NCBI GenBank assembly: GCA_945875335.1
Contig: CAMCKD010000010.1
Span: forward strand, 1-34,038
Direction of reading: 5' to 3'
Length of the DNA: 34,038 bases
Origin: an uncultured Clostridia bacterium
GTDB lineage: Bacteria > Bacillota > Clostridia > Oscillospirales > Oscillospiraceae
The notes below the pieces were generated by a model. That model saw nothing but the letters and a program-made list of their open reading frames with translations. It did not search any database and was not told the origin of the DNA. The stretch's first letter is position 1; every line of letters begins with the position of its first letter. Below are positions 21-34,038 of the stretch, piece by piece. The translations under genes were made by a program, and so were the position numbers.

Positions 21-47
21 GCGGGCGGCTGGTAGCCGCCCCTACGA
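21..47. repeat. Hairpin end of a truncated interspersed repeat
   Basis: The arms GGGCGGCT and AGCCGCCC flank a 3-base loop and are followed by CCTACGA. This is the same end as the repeat copies at 21515-21713 and 33986-34038. The bases to its left (positions 1-20) do not match the conserved interior of those copies, so this is a remnant or a divergent copy. Nothing else recognisable lies between it and the gene ending at 220. Confidence 0.7.
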
Positions 48-980: not shown

Positions 981-1018
981 GAGCATTCAAAAATTGTGCT
1001 CCCGTCAGCATACCGGGA

Positions 1019-1194
1019 AATTGTTGTTTGTAGAGCGCACCCTTGCCCTCCCCTCTGGGGAGGGTGGCCGAGCGCCAGCGAGGTCGGGAGAGGTGTCGTC
1101 GGTCAAAGCGTACCAGCAACCAACGTTTGGCACCCCCTCAGCCTTCGGCAGCTCCCCCAGCGGGGGAGCTAAGGGTAGTCTGCAAACAACGATT
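1019..1194. repeat. Interspersed repeat with outer inverted ends and two inner hairpins (type B)
   Basis: The outer ends are AATTGTTGTTT (1019-1029) and its near-perfect inverse AAACAACGATT (1184-1194). Inside lie an 8-bp hairpin, CCCTCCCC/GGGGAGGG (1046-1064), and a 9-bp hairpin, AGCTCCCCC/GGGGGAGCT (1150-1170). It encodes nothing convincing and looks like a non-autonomous MITE-like element. The same outer 11-mer bounds the repeat at 21515-21713, whose interior is different. Confidence 0.75.
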
Positions 1195-1252
1195 TGTCAA
1201 CACTCTGAGGCTAATCCGTCTAAAATATTTTCTTAGTTTTTTCTTAGGGCTA

Positions 1253-3351: not shown

Positions 3352-6300
3352 TTATCTGGAGTAACCGCCGCCTGTTTTCTTGCGGTAGTAGTACACGCCG
3401 TAGGTGACGGGGATGGCGATGGCGATGATCACAGCCAGGAACAGAATCGTGACCCAGATGCCGTTGCCGCCGCTGCTGGCGGAGGCACCCTGCTTGATGG
3501 TGAAGCCGGTGGATGCCCTGCCGTCCTTGGCCACAATGGAGATGGTGTGGCGGCCCAGGGACAGGCGCTTGAGGTAATTGGCGTTCAGTTCCACAATGGT
3601 GGAGCCCTCACTGACAGAGTAGTTGGTGCTGGCCACGGTGGCACCGTCCACCTCTACCCGGTCAAACTTGCTGTAGTCGGAGTTGGAGCGGAACACCATG
3701 CCCTGGGCGGAGGTGTTCAGCCAGGTGGTCTCCGCGCCCTCGGTCATCTGGTATTCCACGGTGTTGTCCAGACGCTCCTTGCACACATCGCAGCGGCCGT
3801 TGTTGTCCTTGTCCACATGGCCCTGAGCGGGAAGCACCACGCTCTGCTGGTCGGTGATGGGGCTGGTGCAGGTCACGTCACTGAACCACTGGCCGCAGTC
3901 GCAGATGTAGTAGGAGATGTTGCCCTCCTGGGTGCAGGTTGCCGCCTTGGCGGGCACCCGGGACAGGTGGCTGGAATGGATGTGGGCATCCTCCTTGGAG
4001 TAGCCGCAGGTGGCGCACTTTCCGGCGGAGTCAAAGCTGTGGGCCACCAGCTCGCCCTTGGCGCCGCAGCGGGAGCACACATTCCAGTGGTAGTTGGCGT
4101 CCTTTCCATAGCTGCCGGAGGCAGTATGTCCAAGAGCGCTGCCATAGGTGAAGGTCTGGGTTCCCTTTGCGCCGCAGGTGCAGCTGTAATAGTAGGTGGC
4201 GGGGCTGGTGCAGGTGGCATTGGATGCCAGGTAAGCGGAGGAGGCGATCATCTGATCATAGGTGTGGGTCTGGGCAATGGTCTCGGTCTTCTGGATGCCG
4301 CAGACGGTGCAGCTGAATACCTTCTGACCGGCGGTGTTATGGGAGGCCCACTGGGTAACCACACCCTCATTCCACACATGCTCACCCAGGCCGCTGACCA
4401 CGGAGCTGTGCTCACAGGTGGCGGGGTGCCAGTGGTAGGTGGTGTTGCCTGCCCAGGTGGCGGCGAAGGTATGCTGATGCTCAGAAGGCGCGATCTCCTC
4501 GGTCTTGGTTCTGCCGCAGACCACACAGGTGTAGGTCTTTACGCCCTTGGAGGTGGCAGTGGGCTGGACGGTGATCTCACCGGGGCCCCAGTTGTGGTCG
4601 TTTACCTCCACCCGCTGGTCGGTGTGCTCACAGGTGGCGCCCCGCCAGTGCTGCAGCTCATTGCTGCTCCATTGGTCGGAGAAGGTGTGGCCCTTGGCCT
4701 CGCCATAGGCAAAGGTCTCGGTGCCCGCTTCGCCGCAGACGCAGCTCTTGTAGTAGAGCGCCGGGCTGGTGCAGGTGGCAGCGCTGGCCAGATACTTCTG
4801 ATCCACTACCGTCTGATTGTACTCGTGGGGCTGGCCCAGGAGCACCTCGGTCTTCTGGACGCCGCAGACCGTGCAGGTGTACCGCTTCTCGCCGTTGACG
4901 TTGTGACCGGCGTTTTGGATGATTTCGCCGTCGTCCCATTTGTGGGGGCCGTAATCGGCAACCTCACCGCTGTGCTGGCAGGTGGCCTGCCGCCAGTGGT
5001 CGGTGTCATTGTAGCTCCACTGGTCGGAATAGGTGTGTGCCGCCGCCTCGCCATAGGTGAAGGTCTCGGTGCCAACCTGGCCGCAGATGCAGCTCTTGTA
5101 ATACACCGCAGGGCCGTCGCAGGTGGCAGGGCTGGCCAGGTACTGGTCGCTGACCACCTCCTGGTCAAATACATGTTCTGCGGAAGCGGGAATGGATTCG
5201 GTCTTGGTGGAGCCGCAGACGGTGCAGGTGTAGGTCACTTCTCCGCCCGCGGTATGGCTGGGCTGCACCGTGATGACGCCGCCGTCCCAGCTGTGGTCGG
5301 TGGGCTCACCCACGGTAAAGGTCTCGAAGCCCACCGCGCCGCAGAGACAGCTATAGAAATAAGCAGCGGGATTGGCACAGGAAGCGGCCTTGGCCAGGAA
5401 CGCATCGCTGACCACCTGCTGGTCGTACACATGGTCGGCGCTGGGGGCAATGGGCTCCTTCCTGGTCTCATGGCAGATGGTGCAGGTGTAGAGCATCTCG
5501 CCGTTTGTGGTGTGGGTGGGGGCAAGGGTCATCACGCCTTCATCCCAAACGTGCTCCGTATGTGCCGTTTCCGTGGGAATGGTTTCGGTGGGGACGGTCT
5601 CCGTAGGAATGGTTTCCGTGGGGACAGGCTCCGTGGGAATGGGCTCGGTAACCGGCTCCGTGGGAGGCTCCGGCTGGCTCACCACAAAGGAATAGACAAT
5701 GGGGCCGCTGTGGTCACTCACCAGCGCATTGGGATACTGGGTGGTGGTGTAGGCAGAGGGGTTCACGCACACAAAGCCCGTCCCGGTGCCGCTCAGCAGC
5801 CAGCCATAGGACGCAGCCAGCTCCAGCTCCCTGGAAATGTCACTGGCAATTTGGGCGCCCATGCCGCTATAGTCCATCAGCGCCGTGATGCGGAACTCCC
5901 CGCCGGTGTAGCCGATGGTGGTTCCGGCCTCCACATAGCTGCCGGAGTCCGCCGCGTCAGCACTGACGCTGCCCATCACGATGTAGTAGGAGAAATTGCC
6001 GTCCACCGGCACCTCCAGCACCACACCGTCACCCCAGTGCTGATCGGGCTGGCTGGTGCGATACAGTACGCCGGAGACCGGGGCATACACCGGCTGCATG
6101 GAACCGGCGTTCACGATCAGCTCATAGCTTCCGTAGGTGCTCTCAGCGTGCTCCCAGTGAGTGCAGCCGTCGTTGGTGCCGCCATACAGGGCGTTTTCAT
6201 TTCCGCCCCGGCAGCCGGCAAAATCCACGATGTCATCGAAGAACTCCTCGCTCAGGGGGAAATACCAGCCGTCCATCTGACGGTTGACGACGCTGTAGCG

Positions 6301-6474
6301 CTGCTCATCGGTGAGCCCGGTGCTCTGGGGGGCTTCCGGCTCCGTCACGGTCTGCTCCGCAACGCTTTCTTCGGTTCCCACTTCCTCGGCGTGGATGTGC
6401 AGCGGCAGAGCACCGATCAGCAGCACCCCGCACAGAAGCAGGGATAATCCTTTCTTGAATACAGACTCTCTCAT
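3352..6474 (-). CDS. Large cell-surface protein: inactive M23-like domain, Cys-rich modules, membrane anchor
   Basis: 1040 residues. A signal peptide (about residues 1-30) is followed by an M23 (lysostaphin)-like stretch around residues 95-200: PVYAPVSGVLY, WGDGVVLEV, SYYIVMGSVS and GTTIGYTGG match the fold, but the usual metal-binding H..D and HxH residues are absent, so it is probably not a peptidase. Next is a Pro-Thr-Glu spacer (PTETIPTETVPTET). Then three module types alternate: five copies with W..G and YTCTVCG..KTE, four with YxSCxCG..GTETF, and four with HWxxATCxH. Near the end is a DxxxVxVDG...STIV...L..GxHT domain of X2/Ig type, then a membrane helix and a short basic tail (YYYRKKTGGGYSR). 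No LPXTG motif. The ATG at 6474 has AAGGAG nine bases upstream; an in-frame TTG at 6483 is too close to it. Function unknown; display on the wall is inferred. Confidence 0.85.
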   Translation of the reverse strand: MRESVFKKGLSLLLCGVLLIGALPLHIHAEEVGTEESVAEQTVTEPEAPQSTGLTDEQRYSVVNRQMDGWYFPLSEEFFDDIVDFAGCRGGNENALYGGTNDGCTHWEHAESTYGSYELIVNAGSMQPVYAPVSGVLYRTSQPDQHWGDGVVLEVPVDGNFSYYIVMGSVSADAADSGSYVEAGTTIGYTGGEFRITALMDYSGMGAQIASDISRELELAASYGWLLSGTGTGFVCVNPSAYTTTQYPNALVSDHSGPIVYSFVVSQPEPPTEPVTEPIPTEPVPTETIPTETVPTETIPTETAHTEHVWDEGVMTLAPTHTTNGEMLYTCTICHETRKEPIAPSADHVYDQQVVSDAFLAKAASCANPAAYFYSCLCGAVGFETFTVGEPTDHSWDGGVITVQPSHTAGGEVTYTCTVCGSTKTESIPASAEHVFDQEVVSDQYLASPATCDGPAVYYKSCICGQVGTETFTYGEAAAHTYSDQWSYNDTDHWRQATCQHSGEVADYGPHKWDDGEIIQNAGHNVNGEKRYTCTVCGVQKTEVLLGQPHEYNQTVVDQKYLASAATCTSPALYYKSCVCGEAGTETFAYGEAKGHTFSDQWSSNELQHWRGATCEHTDQRVEVNDHNWGPGEITVQPTATSKGVKTYTCVVCGRTKTEEIAPSEHQHTFAATWAGNTTYHWHPATCEHSSVVSGLGEHVWNEGVVTQWASHNTAGQKVFSCTVCGIQKTETIAQTHTYDQMIASSAYLASNATCTSPATYYYSCTCGAKGTQTFTYGSALGHTASGSYGKDANYHWNVCSRCGAKGELVAHSFDSAGKCATCGYSKEDAHIHSSHLSRVPAKAATCTQEGNISYYICDCGQWFSDVTCTSPITDQQSVVLPAQGHVDKDNNGRCDVCKERLDNTVEYQMTEGAETTWLNTSAQGMVFRSNSDYSKFDRVEVDGATVASTNYSVSEGSTIVELNANYLKRLSLGRHTISIVAKDGRASTGFTIKQGASASSGGNGIWVTILFLAVIIAIAIPVTYGVYYYRKKTGGGYSR

Positions 6475-6524
6475 CGAGTACAACTCCTTTCACACACCGG
6501 GGCGCTCCCGGCGTTGGTATCTAC

Positions 6525-6891: not shown

Positions 6892-7052
6892 AGCACCAGC
6901 CACTGTAGGGGAGGCTCTTAGCCTCCCGCCAGGTAACGAAACTGAGTGTTTGGTTGAATGGTGCCAGGTGGCGAGCTGGTACGGATTCGCCCATCCTGGT
7001 TGGTAACTGAAAGCCTGTACTGCGCGGGAGGCTAAGAGCCTCCCCTACTAGC
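6892..7052. repeat. Hairpin-ended interspersed repeat (type A, GGGAGGCT variant)
   Basis: The left palindrome GGGGAGGCT/AGCCTCCC and the right palindrome GGGAGGCT/AGCCTCCCC are flanked by GTAG and CTAC. The interior contains CTGAGTGTTTGGTTGAATGG, GTACGGATTCGCCC and GCCTGTACTGCGCGGG, shared with the copies at 21515 and 25458. The left flank GCACCAGCCACT is also found at the right end of the 25458 copy. Confidence 0.85.
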
Positions 7053-7077: not shown

Positions 7078-7192
7078 TCGTAGGGCGGGGTCATGACCCC
7101 ACCGACCAGGTTGCGCATTTTGCCCTGGCACGATTCAACGAAAGTGCTTTCATCTCGTTACGTTTCGGCGGGGTCATGACCCCGCCCTACGA
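7078..7192. repeat. Hairpin-ended interspersed repeat, short variant with a different interior
   Basis: The ends TCGTAGGGCGGGGTCATGAC (7078) and its inverse (to 7192) each contain the palindrome GGGGTCATGACCCC. The 60-base interior does not resemble the type A interior, yet the design (GTAGGG plus a self-complementary end at both sides) is the same. It lies only 26 bases from the previous copy. The 100 bases from here to the gene ending at 7297 hold nothing recognisable. Confidence 0.8.
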
Positions 7193-7296
7193 AAGGCAAG
7201 TTTTAGGCTTAACGGCCTACTACAGCGGCATTGTGAAAGCTGGGAGCAATACCACACTGGGGATGCGTCAAACCGATAAGCACAGCATACAATTGG

Positions 7297-13104: not shown

Positions 13105-13290
13105 TAAGATGAGATATAAGATATGAGATATTCAACGATTAACATCAAAAAGAAGTATTTAGTGAAAGATATAAGATATGAGATACAAGATATAAGATAT
13201 TCCACAAACGAACCATATTCAGTAAAACAGATAATTTATTGGTATAAATAGTGTGATATCTTATATCTCATATCTTATATCTCATATCTC
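13105..13290. repeat. Heptamer-repeat arrays arranged as a long inverted repeat
   Basis: A 7-base unit, RAGATAT (AAGATAT or GAGATAT), is repeated in three clusters: 13108-13132 and 13167-13200 in one orientation and 13255-13290 in the opposite orientation. The second and third clusters pair over 34 bases with about 30 matches around a 54-base spacer, so the DNA or an RNA copy could fold into a long stem. It sits between convergent-free gene ends (both neighbours are on the minus strand), just after thymidylate kinase. Nothing coding is seen in the 13042-13318 gap. Confidence 0.8.
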
Positions 13291-14181: not shown

Positions 14182-14360
14182 TGAATCGCTTAGATAGAGG
14201 CGCGGTACTCATCAGTACCCTCCGGCAAGGTCGTGCAGCCGCCGGGCGGGAAAGGGATCACCGCCGAAGTTGGAACCGATTGCCCGGTTGGTTCCTGCTG
14301 GGCCGTCAGAGAACATCTGCCGGACTGTCACAAGAACTTTGTGAAGCGCTATCATTGGCT
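14182..14360 (+). promoter_or_regulatory. Lysine riboswitch (L box)
   Basis: The conserved lysine-aptamer blocks occur in order: AGATAGAGGCGC (14192-14203), the AGTA turn, GGGATCACCGCCGAAG around 14262-14277, a hairpin GGAACCGAT/GGTTCC with TGCTGGGCCGTC, then CTGTCACA, a hairpin AGAACTTTGTG, and the closing GCGCTATCATTGG (14346-14358), where CTATC pairs with GATAG of the 5' side to form P1. An 11-bp terminator follows at 14394. Lysine binding is expected to favour termination, so the downstream transporter is made when lysine is scarce. The 5' segment TGAATCGCTT (14182-14191) can pair with the 3' arm of the terminator (14409-14418), a possible antiterminator. Confidence 0.95.
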
Positions 14361-17047: not shown

Positions 17048-17070
17048 TGATCTTGGCGGTGATTTGCAAA

Positions 17071-17099
17071 TTGACAAAATATGACCGCTATGTTATAAT
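17071..17099 (+). promoter_or_regulatory. Consensus promoter of carAB
   Basis: TTGACA (17071-17076), a 17-base spacer and TATAAT (17094-17099), both perfect, with an extended -10 TGT. Transcription should start near 17106. Confidence 0.92.
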
Positions 17100-17110
17100 A
17101 AGAAATTGAG

Positions 17111-17172
17111 CAAGGGCGCTCATGTGTACAGGGGAAGTCTTTCCCTTTGCAGATGAGCGTCCTTGTTTTTTT
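17111..17172 (+). terminator. Leader terminator (attenuator) of carAB
   Basis: CAAGGGCGCTCAT (17111-17123) pairs with ATGAGCGTCCTTG (17153-17165) over 13 bp with one G.U pair, enclosing a second hairpin AGGGGAA/TTTCCCT (17130-17146), and is followed by seven T. It ends the transcript about 65 bases from the start, 70 bases before carA. Transcription must pass it for carAB to be made. No PyrR-binding loop, T-box or known riboswitch core was recognised in the leader. Confidence 0.88.
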
Positions 17173-17242
17173 GCAATCCAAACGCCCCAGAGCGCGGGAT
17201 TTGAAATTTTGGGGCAATCTAATTGGGAAACGAGGCGTTACA

Positions 17243-18352
17243 ATGAGACAGTTTGACCGAAAAATCGTTCTGGAAGATGGCAGCGAATACTATGGCTACG
17301 GCTTCGGCGGCCGGGAGGATCGGGTGTGCGAAATCGTGTTCAACACCTCCATGGCCGGATATCAGGAAATCGTGTCCGACCTGTCCTACACCGACCAGAT
17401 GGTGGTCATGACCTATCCCCTCATCGGCAACTACGGCATCTGCGAAGAGGACTATGAGTGCAAAATCCCCAGCATCGGCGGTCTGGTGGTCTACGACTAT
17501 AACGACAACCCCTCCAACTTCCGCTGCGTCAAGGCCCTGTCCGAGCTTTTGGAGGAGGACAACATCCCCGCCATTTCCGGGGTGGACACCAGGAAATTAG
17601 CCCGGAGCATCCGGGATTTGGGCAGCCGGAGGGTGCTGATCACCTCCCCGGAAACCACCGTGGAGGAAGCGCTCTCCACCATCGCCGCCACCCCCGTACC
17701 CCATGACGCGGTGCGCCGGGTCAGCTGCCGCAAGCGCTGGTATTCCCGCACCGCCGACGCCAAATACCATGTGGTAGCCATCGACTGCGGCATCAAGCTG
17801 AACATCATCCGCAGCCTGAACCGTTGGGGCTGCAACGTGACCATCGTCCCCTTCGACACCAGCGCGGAGGAAATTCTCTTTATGAAGCCTGACGGGGTGT
17901 TCCTGTCCAACGGCCCCGGGGACCCGGAGGACGTGCCGGAGGTCACCGCCACCGTGGGGCAGCTCCTTGGCAAGGTTCCCATCTTCGGCATCTGCCTGGG
18001 CCACCAGATCATCTCCCTGGCCTATGGCGGCAAGACCTACAAGCTGAAATTCGGCCACCGGGGCGGCAACCATCCTGTGAAGAATCTGAAAACCGGGAAA
18101 ATCGAAATGACCTCCCAGAACCACAGCTATGCCGTGATTCCTGAGAGTCTGGCAGGAAGCAGACTGGAGATCACCCACAGGAATCTGCTGGACAACACCG
18201 TGGAGGGGGCGGAATGCAAAGCCGACCGGGTATTCAGCGTTCAATACCACCCGGAGAGCGCCCCCGGCCCCCAGGACAGCCAATATCTATTTGAACATTT
18301 CGTGGAATATATGAAGGAGGCGAAAGGTCATGCCCAAAAGAACAGATATTAA
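17243..18352 (+). CDS. carA: Carbamoyl-phosphate synthase, small (glutaminase) subunit
   Basis: 369 residues, full length. The N-terminal CPSase small-chain domain ([20 protein letters not shown]) is followed by a class I glutamine amidotransferase domain with the nucleophile Cys251 in GICLGHQ and the His336/Glu338 pair in QYHPES. It releases ammonia from glutamine for CarB, feeding pyrimidine and arginine synthesis. The ATG at 17243 has GAGG nine bases upstream; a longer in-frame extension runs into the leader terminator. It overlaps carB by 23 bases. Confidence 0.97.
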
Positions 18353-21300
18353 AAAGGTTCTGGTCATCGGTTCCGGCCCCATCGTCATCGGACAGGCGGC
18401 GGAATTCGACTACGCGGGCACCCAGGCCTGCCTGGCGCTGAAGGAGGAGGGCTACGAGGTCATTCTGGCCAACTCCAACCCCGCCACCATCATGACCGAT
18501 ACCTCCGTGGCGGACAAGGTGTATATGGAGCCCCTGACCCTGGAATACCTGGCGAGGATCTGCCGGTATGAGCGTCCCGATGCCATCGTCCCCGGCATCG
18601 GCGGCCAGACGGGCTTGAACCTTGCCATGCAGCTGGCCAAAAAGGGTGTGCTGGAGGAATGCGAAATTGAGCTCCTGGGCACCGACGCCGACAGCATTGA
18701 GCGGGCGGAGGATCGGGAGCTTTTCAAGGAGCTGTGCCAGTCCATCGGCGAGCCGGTGGTGCCCAGCCAGATCACCTATTCCATCGAGGAAGCAGTGGCG
18801 GCAGCGGAAGAAATCGGCTATCCCGTGATTCTGCGTCCCGCCTTCACCCTGGGTGGCACCGGCGGCGGCTTCGCCTACGACGAGCAGGAGCTGCGGGAAT
18901 TGATGAAAAACGCCTTGGCCCTCTCCCCCGTCCATCAGGTACTGGTGGAAAAGAGCATCAAGGGCTATAAAGAAATCGAATACGAGGTCATTCGGGATGC
19001 TAACGACACCGCCATCACCGTCTGCAACATGGAAAACCTGGACCCCGTGGGCATTCACACCGGCGACTCCATTGTGGTGGCTCCCAGCCAGACCCTGACC
19101 AACAAGGAATACCACATGCTCCGGGACGCGGCCCTGCGGATCATCCGGGCGCTGAACGTCAAGGGCGGCTGCAACGTCCAGTTTGCTCTGGACCCCCACT
19201 CCTTCCGCTATTATGTCATTGAGGTCAACCCCCGGGTGTCCCGTTCCTCCGCCCTGGCTTCCAAGGCCTCGGGCTATCCCATCGCCCGGGTCTCCGCCAA
19301 AATCGCCGTGGGCATGAATCTGGACGAAATCCAGCTGGCCAACACCCCCGCCTGCTTCGAGCCCAGTCTTGACTATGTGGTGACCAAAATGCCCCGGTTC
19401 CCCTTTGACAAATTTCCTGCCGCTCAGAACCAGCTCTCCACCCAGATGAAGGCCACCGGCGAGGTGATGAGCGTGGGCCGGTGCTTTGAGGAGAGCCTGC
19501 TGAAAGCCATTCGCTCCCTGGAGGACAGCAAGAATCACCTGCACATGGCAAAATTCGATTCCGAGCACATGACGGTGGAAGAGCTGCTGGACTACATTAA
19601 AGAGGGCACCGACGACCGAATCTACGCCATCTCCCAGCTGATGTGGCTGGGGGTGGATGCCTCCCTGATCTGCGACATCACCCAAATTGACATGTTCTTC
19701 CTGGACAAAATCAAGAAAATCGTGGATTTTGAAAAGGAGCTGGAAGCAAACCGGGGGAATCTGGACTATCTAAAGGAGGCCAAACGGCTGGGCTTCTCCG
19801 ATGCTTATGTTGCCGAGCTGTGGAAAACCGAGGAATTTGCGGTGTACCAGCTGCGCTCCATGGCGGGTCTTTTCCCGGTGTATAAAATGATCGACACCTG
19901 CGCCAGCGAGTTTGAGAGCTATGTGCCCTATTTCTACTCCACCTACGCAGAGGAAAACGAGAGCATCGTCACAAATAAAAAGAAAATCATCGTCCTGGGC
20001 TCCGGCCCCATCCGCATTGGTCAGGGCGTGGAATTTGACTATTCCACCGTCCACGCCGTCCACACCATTCGTGCCCTGGGCTATGAGGCCATCGTCATCA
20101 ACAACAACCCGGAAACCGTGTCCACAGATTATTCCACCGCCGACAAGCTGTACTTCGAGCCCTTGACCGTGGAGGATGTGATGAACATCATCCATCTGGA
20201 GCAGCCCGAGGGGGTCATTGCCACCCTGGGAGGCCAGACGGCCGTGAATCTGGCGCAAGGGCTCCACGACCGGGGAGTGAAGATCATCGGCACGGACTGC
20301 GAGGCCATTGAAAAGGCGGAAAATCGGGATGCCTTCGACGCGGTGATCAAGTCCCTGCACATCCCCAACCCCAAGGGGGAGGCGGTGACAAATATTGAGC
20401 AGGGCGTGGCTGTTGCGGAGGCCATTGGCTATCCCGTGCTGGTTCGCCCCAGCTTTGTGCTGGGCGGACGGGCCATGGAGATCGTGGCGGACGAAAAAAT
20501 GCTCCGCCGCTACCTGAAAAACGCCGTGGAGATCGACGAAAAGAAGCCGGTGCTCATCGACAAATATGTGGTGGGCCGGGAGGTGGAGGTGGACGCCATC
20601 TGCGACGGGGAGCAGGTATTCCTGCCGGGCATCATGGAGCTGGTGGAGCGCACCGGCGTCCACTCCGGCGATTCCATCTCGGTCTATCCCCCCTTCTCTC
20701 TGTCCGGCCAGGTGAAGCAGACCATTGTGGACTATACCGCCAAATTGGGCTTGGGTATCGGCATCCGAGGGCTTTACAACATCCAGTTCATTGTGGATGC
20801 CCAGGACAAGGTGTATGTCATTGAGGTCAACCCCCGGGCCTCCCGCTCGGTGCCCTTCCTGTCCAAATCCACGGGGCTGAACCTGGTGGCCATCGCAACG
20901 AAGGTGATGCTGGGCCACAGCCTGAAGGAGCAGGGCATCGATGCCGCCTTCTATCCCGAGGCTGATCGGTGGTACGTCAAAGCCCCGGCCTTCTCCTTCG
21001 CCAAGCTGACGGGCATGGATGCCTACCTGTCCCCGGAGATGAAGTCCACCGGCGAAGCCATCGGCTATGACCGCAGCCTGAAACGGGCGCTGTACAAGGC
21101 ATTGCAGGCCTCCGGCATCAAGATGAAGGACTACGGCACCGTCATCATCACCCTGGCCGACGAGGACAAGGAGGAAGGCCTGCCCCTGGCAAAGCGGTTC
21201 TACCAGCTGGGCTTCAACATCGAAGCCACCGAGGGCACTGCCGCCTTCTTAAAGAGCCACGGCATCCGCACCCGGGTGAGAAGAAAGCTCAGCGACGGCA

Positions 21301-21515
21301 GCAACGAGCTGCTGAACTCCATCCGGGCGGGCTATGTCAGCTATATCCTCAACACCAAAACCATCAGCAGCGACACCCACCAGGAAGACGGCGTTGCCAT
21401 CCGCCGCTGCGCCGTGCAGAACGGCGTGAATATGTTCACCTCCCTGGACACCGCCCGAATCCTCCTGGACGCCCTGGAGGAAGTAATCCCAGAGATTTCC
21501 ACCATCAAGCGGTAA
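18330..21515 (+). CDS. carB: Carbamoyl-phosphate synthase, large subunit
   Basis: 1061 residues, normal length. Two homologous ATP-grasp halves are seen: the first begins [26 protein letters not shown] and carries [12 protein letters not shown] and [16 protein letters not shown]; the second begins [26 protein letters not shown] near residue 551 and carries [14 protein letters not shown] and [15 protein letters not shown]. The last 130 residues are the MGS-like allosteric domain, where UMP or ornithine binds in relatives. It makes carbamoyl phosphate from bicarbonate, two ATP and ammonia delivered by CarA. AAGGAGG lies nine bases upstream of the ATG. The stop codon at 21513-21515 touches the outer end of a repeat. 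Confidence 0.98.
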
Positions 21516-21713
21516 ATTGTTGTTTATGCGACGAACCATTCGTAGGGGCGGCTATTAGCCGCCCGCCAGGTTAGATGCCTGAGTGTTTGGTTGAATGGTA
21601 CAAATGTGGGAAACTGGTACGAATTCGCCCGACATTTCTTGTGGTTTTCAGCTTGTACTGCGCGGGCGGCTGGTAGCCGCCCCTACGAATGGCATGTTCG
21701 AGAAACAACAATT
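21515..21713. repeat. Hairpin-ended interspersed repeat (type A, GGGCGGCT variant), most complete copy
   Basis: The outer inverted ends are AATTGTTGTTT (21515-21525) and AAACAACAATT (21703-21713). The inner ends CCATTCGTAGGGGCGGCT and its inverse each carry a hairpin with arms GGGGCGGCT/AGCCGCCC. The interior shares CTGAGTGTTTGGTTGAATGG, GTACGAATTCGCCC and AGCTTGTACTGCGCGGG with the copies at 6892 and 25458. It starts on the last base of the carB stop codon. No protein is encoded. Confidence 0.9.
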
Positions 21714-21746
21714 TTTAAGTACAACTACCACTGCTGTCAAATGGTG

Positions 21747-25402: not shown

Positions 25403-25457
25403 CCACTTTCCACGTCCTTTCTGATGTGTGGGATATTTTCCATAGGTTACTATGATA

Positions 25458-25655
25458 AATTGTTGCTTGAATTATTGAGCGCCACTGTAGGGGAGGATAT
25501 CATCCTCCCGCCAGGTTGGTTAACTGAGTGTTTGGTTGAATGGTATACAGTCCAACCTTGTACGAATTCGCCCAACCTAGCCAATCATTCAAAGCTTGTA
25601 CCGCGCGGGAGGATAATATCCTCCCCTACAGTGGCTGGTGCGAAAAACAACAATT
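25458..25655. repeat. Hairpin-ended interspersed repeat (type A, GGGAGGAT variant) inside the ytf operon
   Basis: Ends with CCACTGTAGGGGAGGAT and its inverse, each carrying a hairpin with arms GGGGAGGAT/ATCCTCCC. The interior shares CTGAGTGTTTGGTTGAATGG, GTACGAATTCGCCC and AGCTTGTACCGCGCGGG with the other type A copies. Outer ends AATTGTTG and AACAACAATT are as in the 21515 copy. It fills the 318-base gap between ytfQ (ends 25721) and ytfR (starts 25402). Confidence 0.88.
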
Positions 25656-25720
25656 CAGAAATACCAGAAGGAGAAGGAGCCGAACGGCCCCTTCCCCTTT
25701 CAGTGAATTACATCTAAATC

Positions 25721-28937: not shown

Positions 28938-29000
28938 GTGTTACCTCTTTGTGTGTATTCGGTTAACTCGGTAATCGGTGTATATCGCTGATTTGCAACG

Positions 29001-29018
29001 CACCATTCGTAGGGCGGC
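29001..29018. repeat. Remnant of the hairpin-ended repeat
   Basis: CACCATTCGTAGGGCGGC matches the outer end of type A copies (CCATTCGTAGGGGCGGC) but the second arm and interior are gone. It lies in the 125-base gap between the Cof-type gene and the response regulator. Confidence 0.6.
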
Positions 29019-29062
29019 AAAAGAATCAGATTGCTGATCATGGCCGACAAGCACATACCGTT

Positions 29063-33857: not shown

Positions 33858-33985
33858 GGGTTATTTTCCTCCAAAATCAAATTGTTTCAGCCATATTGAT
33901 TATCCGATTGGTCAGTGATACAATATATTTGTTGTATCATAAAAGTGCTTATCGGTTTTGCTCAGCTAAGTGGTTCTTTTTTGCA

Positions 33986-34038
33986 CCAGCCATTCGTAGG
34001 GGCGGCTACCAGCCGCCCGCGCAGTACAAGCTGAAAAT
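33986..34038. repeat. Hairpin-ended interspersed repeat, cut by the window edge
   Basis: GCACCAGCCATTCGTAGGGG, then the hairpin GGGGCGGCT/AGCCGCCC with loop ACC, then GCGCAGTACAAGCTGAAAA. This is the inverse of the right end of the copy at 21515-21713, so the copy is in the opposite orientation. The 128 bases between it and the infC promoter hold only an isolated 8-bp hairpin (TGATACAA/TTGTATCA) of unknown role. Confidence 0.85.

Follow-up and report, generated by a model that had tools for sequence, protein, structure and literature searches.

Inverted GTAG hairpins resembling REPINs form stem subfamilies in a Clostridia genome and often lie within a putative MITE-like carrier

The GTAG tetranucleotide takes part in the choice of cleavage site by TnpA-REP/RAYT proteins (PMC8266576, PMC2817692), and the coevolution of RAYTs with REPs is known from Stenotrophomonas (PMC2817692). 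The taxa listed in PMC3733652 as carrying GTAG repeats are Proteobacteria, Cyanobacteria, Chloroflexi and PVC. The same article describes many GTAG-15 dimers within long palindromes of Anabaena variabilis, where REP-free palindromes of this kind were not found, and its section 7 notes REP dimers inside longer palindromes without an explanation. Our searches of the open-access literature for REP and RAYT in Firmicutes, or for a RAYT transposase in Clostridiales, returned no match, a search on REP-associated tyrosine transposases in Clostridia gave a single article, and the search for REPs in Faecalibacterium returned only matches that, as listed, we judged to be unrelated. A further class of elements with a bearing on the locus described here is that of the MITEs of DDE transposons, which possess terminal inverted repeats and a target duplication of fixed length and carry no gene.

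We analyzed a window of 34,038 bases, which is the whole of contig C10 of a Clostridia genome (the window edges are the contig ends), and found in it a repeat that we call REPIN A. The unit measures about 145 bases and consists of GTAG, an 8-bp stem and a 3-nt loop at one end and the inverted counterpart closed by CTAC at the other. Three complete copies (6905-7048, 21542-21686 and 25487-25629) and two copies cut by the window edges (about 1-47 and 33996-34038) were detected, and within the window they are located between long ORFs, i.e., they are extragenic (Table 1). The original prediction had counted four copies of one layout; the order of GTAG hairpin, interior, and hairpin with CTAC holds, but the count has to be changed to three complete and two edge-cut copies, and the starts it had assigned (21515, 6892 and 25458) are situated in the outer arms and not at GTAG. 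It had also described the palindromes as alike at both ends of a copy. This applies to the stems, whereas the 3-nt loops are unlike in two of the three complete window copies (ATT/ACC at 21542 and ATC/ATT at 25487, compared with CTT/CTT at 6905).

Table 1. Coordinates of REPIN A, its shell and associated repeats in the window
Feature	Position	Strand
REPIN A copy 2, left GTAG hairpin, stem GGGCGGCT, loop ATT	21542..21564	+
REPIN A copy 2, interior (spacer) with CTGAGTGTTTGGTTGAATGG and GTACGAATTCGCCC	21565..21663	+
REPIN A copy 2, right GTAG hairpin, stem GGGCGGCT, loop ACC	21664..21686	-
Left shell arm AAATTGTTGTTT..CCATTC of copy 2, overlapping the stop codon TAA at 21513-21515	21514..21541	+
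Right shell arm GAATGG..AAACAACAATTT of copy 2	21687..21714	-
REPIN A copy 1, both stems GGGAGGCT	6905..7048	+
REPIN B, inverted hairpins GTAGGGCGGGGTCATGACCCC[A/G]CC, short spacer to REPIN A copy 1	7080..7190	+
Outermost carrier repeat (TGTGCTTATCGGTTTGACGCA), the probable end of the composite formed by REPIN A copy 1 with REPIN B	7264..7284	-
REPIN A copy 3, both stems GGGAGGAT, within shell 25457-25656	25487..25629	+
End hairpin of REPIN A copy truncated by the contig start, stem GGGCGGCT	23..45	-
End hairpin of REPIN A copy truncated by the contig end, stem GGGCGGCT	33996..34018	+
Outermost carrier repeat (AGTGCTTATCGGTTTTGCTCAGC) next to the right-edge copy	33944..33966	+
AAATTGTTGTTT shell with a third, unrelated palindromic cargo (cargo C)	1018..1195	.

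The ORF at 18330-21515, a putative carB by its sequence features, ends in the TAA at 21513-21515, with which the shell arm (GGTAAATTG) overlaps at its start; the element either abuts this ORF or supplies its stop codon. Elsewhere in the window, Rfam at gathering thresholds returned a lysine riboswitch at 14187-14359 (RF00168, 101.9 bits) and nothing else. The long ORF on the minus strand at 3352-6483 contains internal DNA repeats spaced 348-561 bases apart, and repeats of 15 bases follow one another near 5555-5649.

Across the 2.55-Mb assembly, the 20-nt interior motif was matched 152 times (79 + 73) with up to three mismatches, while its reversed-pattern control yielded 0 matches. A hairpin pattern, which itself requires GTAG, gave 347 matches (control 0) and is present in 32 of 121 genus genomes, the genome under study counted among them. 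The interior motif with up to two mismatches was absent from 59 other genomes searched, 36 of which are congeners, and its exact form had no match in genome_contigs or viral_contigs.

To compare the two ends of each copy, we used 86 unique two-ended copies, part of at least 152, from 599,148 bases of the same genome in partly overlapping stretches; an end with more than one defect was passed over by the hairpin finder, and more degraded ends are thus uncounted. The 8-base stems were the same at both ends in 78 of the 86 copies, whereas shuffling the right ends gave a mean of 43.2 and a maximum of 58 (10,000 permutations). The stem has two toggling positions, 4 and 7, at which C:G alternates with A:T, and the identical-stem copies comprise 53 with GGGAGGCT (A,C), 20 with GGGCGGCT (C,C) and 5 with GGGAGGAT (A,A). 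Among the eight unmatched copies, seven differ at the toggling positions (four A,C/A,A, two C,C/A,C and one A,C/C,C); the eighth shows only one unpaired change. The two arms of a hairpin paired perfectly in 166 of 172 cases, under the finder limit of one defect per end. Interiors measured 90-99 bases in 81 copies and 120-129 bases in 5. The proposed matching of changes across both arms and both ends was thereby confirmed in these 86 copies, most of which have matched ends.

A congener (G032) has 377 pattern hairpins, and the 100 of them tallied form 45 close inverted pairs (25 C/C, 19 A/A and 1 mixed) and 10 singles. Among the 16 G032 copies that we read from end to end, 15 were matched, and the interiors differ between stem types; the one mixed copy adjoins the RAYT gene. 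We conclude that the matching of stem ends is real and far above chance, yet not absolute.

The original prediction attributed this matching to a copying or conversion step between the ends. In such a scenario, the ends of each copy would pair in one long hairpin and be homogenized there, either by gene conversion or by template switching. The strand does fold into one long hairpin (DNA folding z of -7.0 for the REPIN and -10.2 for the REPIN with shell), and the identical stems in 78 of 86 copies are compatible with conversion. Loops also agreed between ends in 36 of 86 copies vs. 15.8 after shuffling (maximum 28) when the stem type was ignored, and a few left-block haplotypes were seen with more than one matched end type. 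When the left end was predicted by nearest neighbor, with scores that are descriptive, the far (right) end reached 0.873, the right block 0.856 and the adjacent left block 0.802 (baseline 0.53). Additionally, the five bases beside GTAG were marginally more alike within a copy (0.37 edits vs. 0.49 shuffled, 64 of 1000 shuffles as low), a likeness that weakly favors copying.

Other parts of the same hairpin speak against conversion. When shuffled within stem type, loops agreed in 35 of the 78 identical-stem copies vs. 30.6 (203 of 2000 shuffles as high), and the outer arms showed a mean of 7.66 edits within a copy vs. 7.34 shuffled (n = 38), a value that 791 of 1000 shuffles equaled or undercut. 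In none of 40 copies were the two shell arms identical. Since the two loops and the two outer arms of a copy resemble each other no more than shuffled ones do, we reject end-to-end copying as the main cause, and conversion as the explanation of the family appears quite unlikely to us. Instead, the end type of REPIN A is associated with the interior block on the right, and in at least three mixed-end copies the ends accord with the subfamily blocks: L038, L048 and L163 combine a left block of one type with a right block of another and look like crossovers between subfamilies. A fourth toggle-mixed copy, L018, is probably also a crossover of this kind, and three of the seven (L030, L045 and L165) have no clear block pattern. 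Linkage accounts for most of the end matching, perhaps not for all of it, as the prediction scores of 0.873 vs. 0.802 and the likeness beside GTAG weakly hint at coupling beyond linkage. We conclude that the stems match via subfamily descent under a pairing constraint and not by copying one end onto the other.

A REPIN-like element moved by a Y1 (HUH) transposase had further been proposed. The inverted GTAG hairpins and the RAYTs of congeners agree with this proposal, but the own assembly yielded no RAYT/Y1 transposase in searches with Pfam PF01797 and a congener-RAYT alignment at E up to 10. This assembly is 92.2% complete and several of its contigs end in or near REPIN A repeats, so the absence of a RAYT from the genome is not proven. 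Using the congener-RAYT alignment, RAYT genes were found in 34 of 61 genus genomes searched, and the genome under study is among those without. The motif MPNH.H (HUH motif) is invariant in 11 aligned congener RAYT proteins. The alignment matched E. coli TnpA-REP (PDB 4er8) with an E-value of 2.6e-11, and four RAYTs matched the NCBIfam family REP_Tyr_transpos (NF047646) with E-values of 5e-21 to 1.5e-17 and 64-75 bits, below the family cut-off of 80. Named public relatives of these proteins are, by their titles, mostly from Clostridia/Oscillospiraceae MAGs.

We inspected 112 distinct RAYT loci out of 130 (50 in genus/order genomes and 80 on named public contigs). GT[A/G]G hairpins were located on both sides of the gene at 25 loci, upstream only at 16 and downstream only at 9; by the criteria used, 62 of the 112 loci had none. 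At the 25 two-sided loci, the stretches compared agreed fully in 12 cases, while the agreement was 0.9 in 9 others and 0.8 in the remaining 4, where the best match among the three nearest hairpins per side was taken, which favors agreement, and up to one stem mismatch was allowed. Distances between RAYT proteins correlated with distances between stems (Mantel r = 0.45, n = 50 loci; none of 5000 permutations exceeded 0.28): RAYTs and stems co-diversify. The G032 RAYT is flanked by GTAGGGGCGGCT..AGCCGCCC hairpins with the loop ATC; GTAGGGGCGGCTATCAGCCGCCC hairpins are found upstream, and the stems GGGCGGCT and GGGCGGAT downstream.

The interior of REPIN A is also linked to a RAYT gene. The inner side of its right end forms the module GCAGTACAG-N(18-28)-GGCGAATTCGTA. 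Of 136 genus genomes, only 2 contain its exact form: the genome under study has 23 occurrences, and G010 has one. The G010 copy is placed in a RAYT leader, between a GTAG hairpin (stem GGGCGGGT) and the RAYT gene start. This link is made by the two-part module and its exact genus-wide search and covers 23 own copies only; by alignment score alone, REPIN interiors and RAYT leaders showed no significant similarity (best 12, null maximum 12). Judged by its sequence, REPIN A thus qualifies as REPIN-like, whereas membership among RAYT-mobilized REPINs is not proven, as no cognate RAYT was detected in the own assembly at E up to 10.

REPIN A copies are often enclosed by a shell of inverted AAATTGTTGTTT arms. 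The arm was present on both sides of 40 of the 86 copies and on one side only of 24, i.e., on at least one side of 64. Another 18 copies had only a stub or a neighboring REPIN B on a side, and 4 had no arm, stub or REPIN B within 80 bases, one of which (L015) is inside a larger shell. Clearly carrier-free copies therefore seem to be few, although this number is uncertain. The hairpin of REPIN B (stem GGCGGGGT) flanks RAYT genes of congeners (L101, L110, L111 and L112), and the spacer that joins REPIN B (7080-7190 in the window) to REPIN A copy 1 recurs at other loci. Cargo C (..CACCCCCTCAG..GGGGGAGC..) was seen in AAATTGTTGTTT shells at 1018-1195 of the window, L028:2626-2817 and L068:141-330. 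In 412 kb of own sequence, a non-random sample of contig stretches and the window that comes largely from contigs with known copies, we found 31 inverted AAATTGTTGTTT pairs, which enclose REPIN A (13), cargo C (13), REPIN B (4) or A and C together (1), and none of these 31 shells was empty. The same 412 kb contained 41 more arm-like matches (up to two mismatches) that are unpaired, many of them plainly chance.

Beyond the arms, an outermost carrier repeat was identified (TGTGC[A/T]TATCGG[C/T]TT.ACTCAGC). The main REPIN A copy of the window has no such repeats, and none was found on its left side (arm 21514..21541). We assembled 21 composites with the outermost repeat at both ends (16 from the own genome, 4 from G032 and 1 from G084), which hold REPIN A (8), cargo C (5), REPIN B (3) or relatives with their own GTAG hairpins (5). 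Their 8-bp flanks agreed at 5.29 of 8 positions on average vs. 3.10 after shuffling (maximum 4.24 in 5000 shuffles), and the duplication peaked at a length of 8 (0.66 vs. 0.36-0.50 for lengths 4-7 and 9-11). It is exact in 4 composites, reaches at least 6 of 8 bases in 12 and stays below 6 of 8 in 9; among the REPIN A composites, 6 of 8 have at least 6 of 8 bases duplicated. With its inverted outermost repeats and 8-bp duplications, the carrier resembles a DDE-type MITE. In the part of the genome covered, 22 TIR pairs 600-3500 bp apart had no matching 8-bp duplication (best 5 of 8) and yielded no autonomous carrier; the portion of the own genome searched contained no carrier transposase, and the exact carrier-TIR pattern had no match in viral_contigs. 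Arrays of GATATAAGATATGAG-like units in both orientations are present at 13109-13289 of the window, and units of this kind also border the composites at L044, L066, L299 and L350; they are perhaps an AT-rich insertion target.

In the own genome, the stem type was predicted by the left carrier arm at 0.83 (shuffled maximum 0.70) and by the right one at 0.71 (baseline 0.46), using bases beyond the five next to GTAG. This tracking of stem type by the carrier arms fits a joint spread of carrier and REPIN. One could also regard the whole structure as a single MITE with very long inverted repeats, in which the GTAG hairpins are the inner part of the TIR and no RAYT is involved. The 8-bp target duplications at the outermost repeats, the inverted repeat that continues from the shell arm through the hairpins, the own assembly without a RAYT and the small number of copies clearly outside a shell are all in line with a single MITE. 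However, the same stems flank RAYT genes of congeners, the interior module recurs in a RAYT leader, three different cargoes occupy the shell, and RAYTs co-diversify with stems. We consider the single MITE unlikely.

The comparison of empty and filled sites that had been suggested could be made with a sister species (G084). The composite at C9:4200-4461 of the own genome, with a duplicated TTTTAGAA, has no counterpart in G084; between the aligned stretches there are 15 bases in G084 vs. 288 in the own genome: the site is filled in one species and empty in the other. At two more sites on that contig, read by eye, G084 carries other GTAG-type hairpin pairs. Over 17064-21515, G084 is about 88% identical to the window, and at the carB site of the window it has a composite that ends in this outermost repeat and shows an exact 8-bp duplication. 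The REPIN inside is another one, with the stem GGAACGGA, which also flanks a RAYT in G002. The outermost repeat is thus common to the species while the cargo differs, and elements bounded by it in two sister species hold the REPINs of those species. On G084 contig C37 (L365), the stems GGAATGCA and GGAACGGA are interleaved at about 60139-60626 and from 68540, with a different shell arm (AAATTGGAATTT). The window has about 115 extra bases compared with G084 at 28938-29062, including a REP-like remnant (GTAGGGCGGC).

These sites also bear on a role at the RNA level, in which the element would act as a terminator or an mRNA-stabilizing 3' element and its copies would be spread by recombination only. 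The position of the window copies between long ORFs, one of them directly on a stop codon, and the very stable folding (with DNA parameters) would suit such a role. The empty site and the 8-bp target duplications demonstrate insertion, though, and in the sister species the equivalent site behind this gene is occupied by a different REPIN, which makes a purely RNA-level element very improbable.

We therefore favor, with good confidence, a non-autonomous REPIN of the GTAG-REP/RAYT type that exists in stem subfamilies and has about half of its examined copies within a MITE-like carrier. The hairpin pairs, their subfamilies, the association with RAYTs in congeners, the carrier with 8-bp duplications and the several kinds of cargo found in one type of shell are direct observations. 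A RAYT (HUH, single-tyrosine) would recognize both GTAG hairpins on single-stranded DNA. Because a stem must pair with itself and both ends must suit the same enzyme, stems would exist as a few alternative types and be inherited as subfamilies; some mixed-end copies, judging from their block patterns, may have arisen by recombination between subfamilies, and end-to-end copying would be unnecessary. The palindromic center of the carrier is probably the place where REPINs insert or replace one another; a RAYT may mediate this loading, and a putative DDE-type transposase of the carrier would then spread the loaded REPIN together with the carrier.

We tentatively extend this to a partnership of two enzymes, a possibility we would not yet bet on: a genus-wide MITE would serve as landing pad and vehicle, the RAYT of each species would load or swap the REPIN at the GTAG boundary, and the carrier transposase would spread the unit. 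If true, a scarce or lost RAYT need not keep REPINs from reaching more than 100 copies. REPINs are usually put down to RAYT action, and the palindrome surrounding them here acts like a transposon that has a target duplication of its own. Such a transposon-like palindrome offers a concrete, testable route by which REPINs might outrun or outlive their RAYT. The genus additionally provides many RAYT-hairpin pairs for the study of how stems and enzymes co-diversify.

Compared with the MITEs of DDE transposons, the carrier is alike in its terminal inverted repeats, the fixed-length target duplication and the lack of a gene; it is unlike them in that its center holds a REPIN or other palindromic cargo and that no parent transposase was found in the part of the genome searched. 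The RAYTs of the congeners share with the TnpA-REP/RAYT proteins described in PMC8266576 and PMC2817692 the HUH, putatively single-tyrosine type and, at 25 of the 112 loci, REP-like hairpins on both sides. In contrast to the systems presented there, they were detected here in congeners and not in the own assembly. With many of the GTAG REP families and REPtrons covered in PMC3733652 (Di Nocera 2013), REPIN A has in common the GTAG head, the short stem and the 2-3 nt loop, as well as inverted dimers, subfamilies with alternative complementary stem residues, and both homodimers and heterodimers. REPIN A belongs to a Clostridia genome, whereas neither 'Firmicutes' nor 'Clostridi' appears in the text of PMC3733652; its section 7 does not describe the surrounding palindromes as transposons with target duplications, which sets the carrier apart. 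Like the REPINs characterized in PMC3116915 (Bertels and Rainey 2011), REPIN A consists of two inverted REPs and a spacer, is extragenic and present in high copy number, forms hairpins and is linked to RAYTs. It departs from the REPINs of that account by two sequence-conserved spacer motifs, by the own assembly in which no RAYT was detected, and by its frequent nesting within a carrier that shows 8-bp target duplications. In kind, the REPIN/RAYT reading is correct, and the interesting part is the nesting of a REPIN in a transposon.
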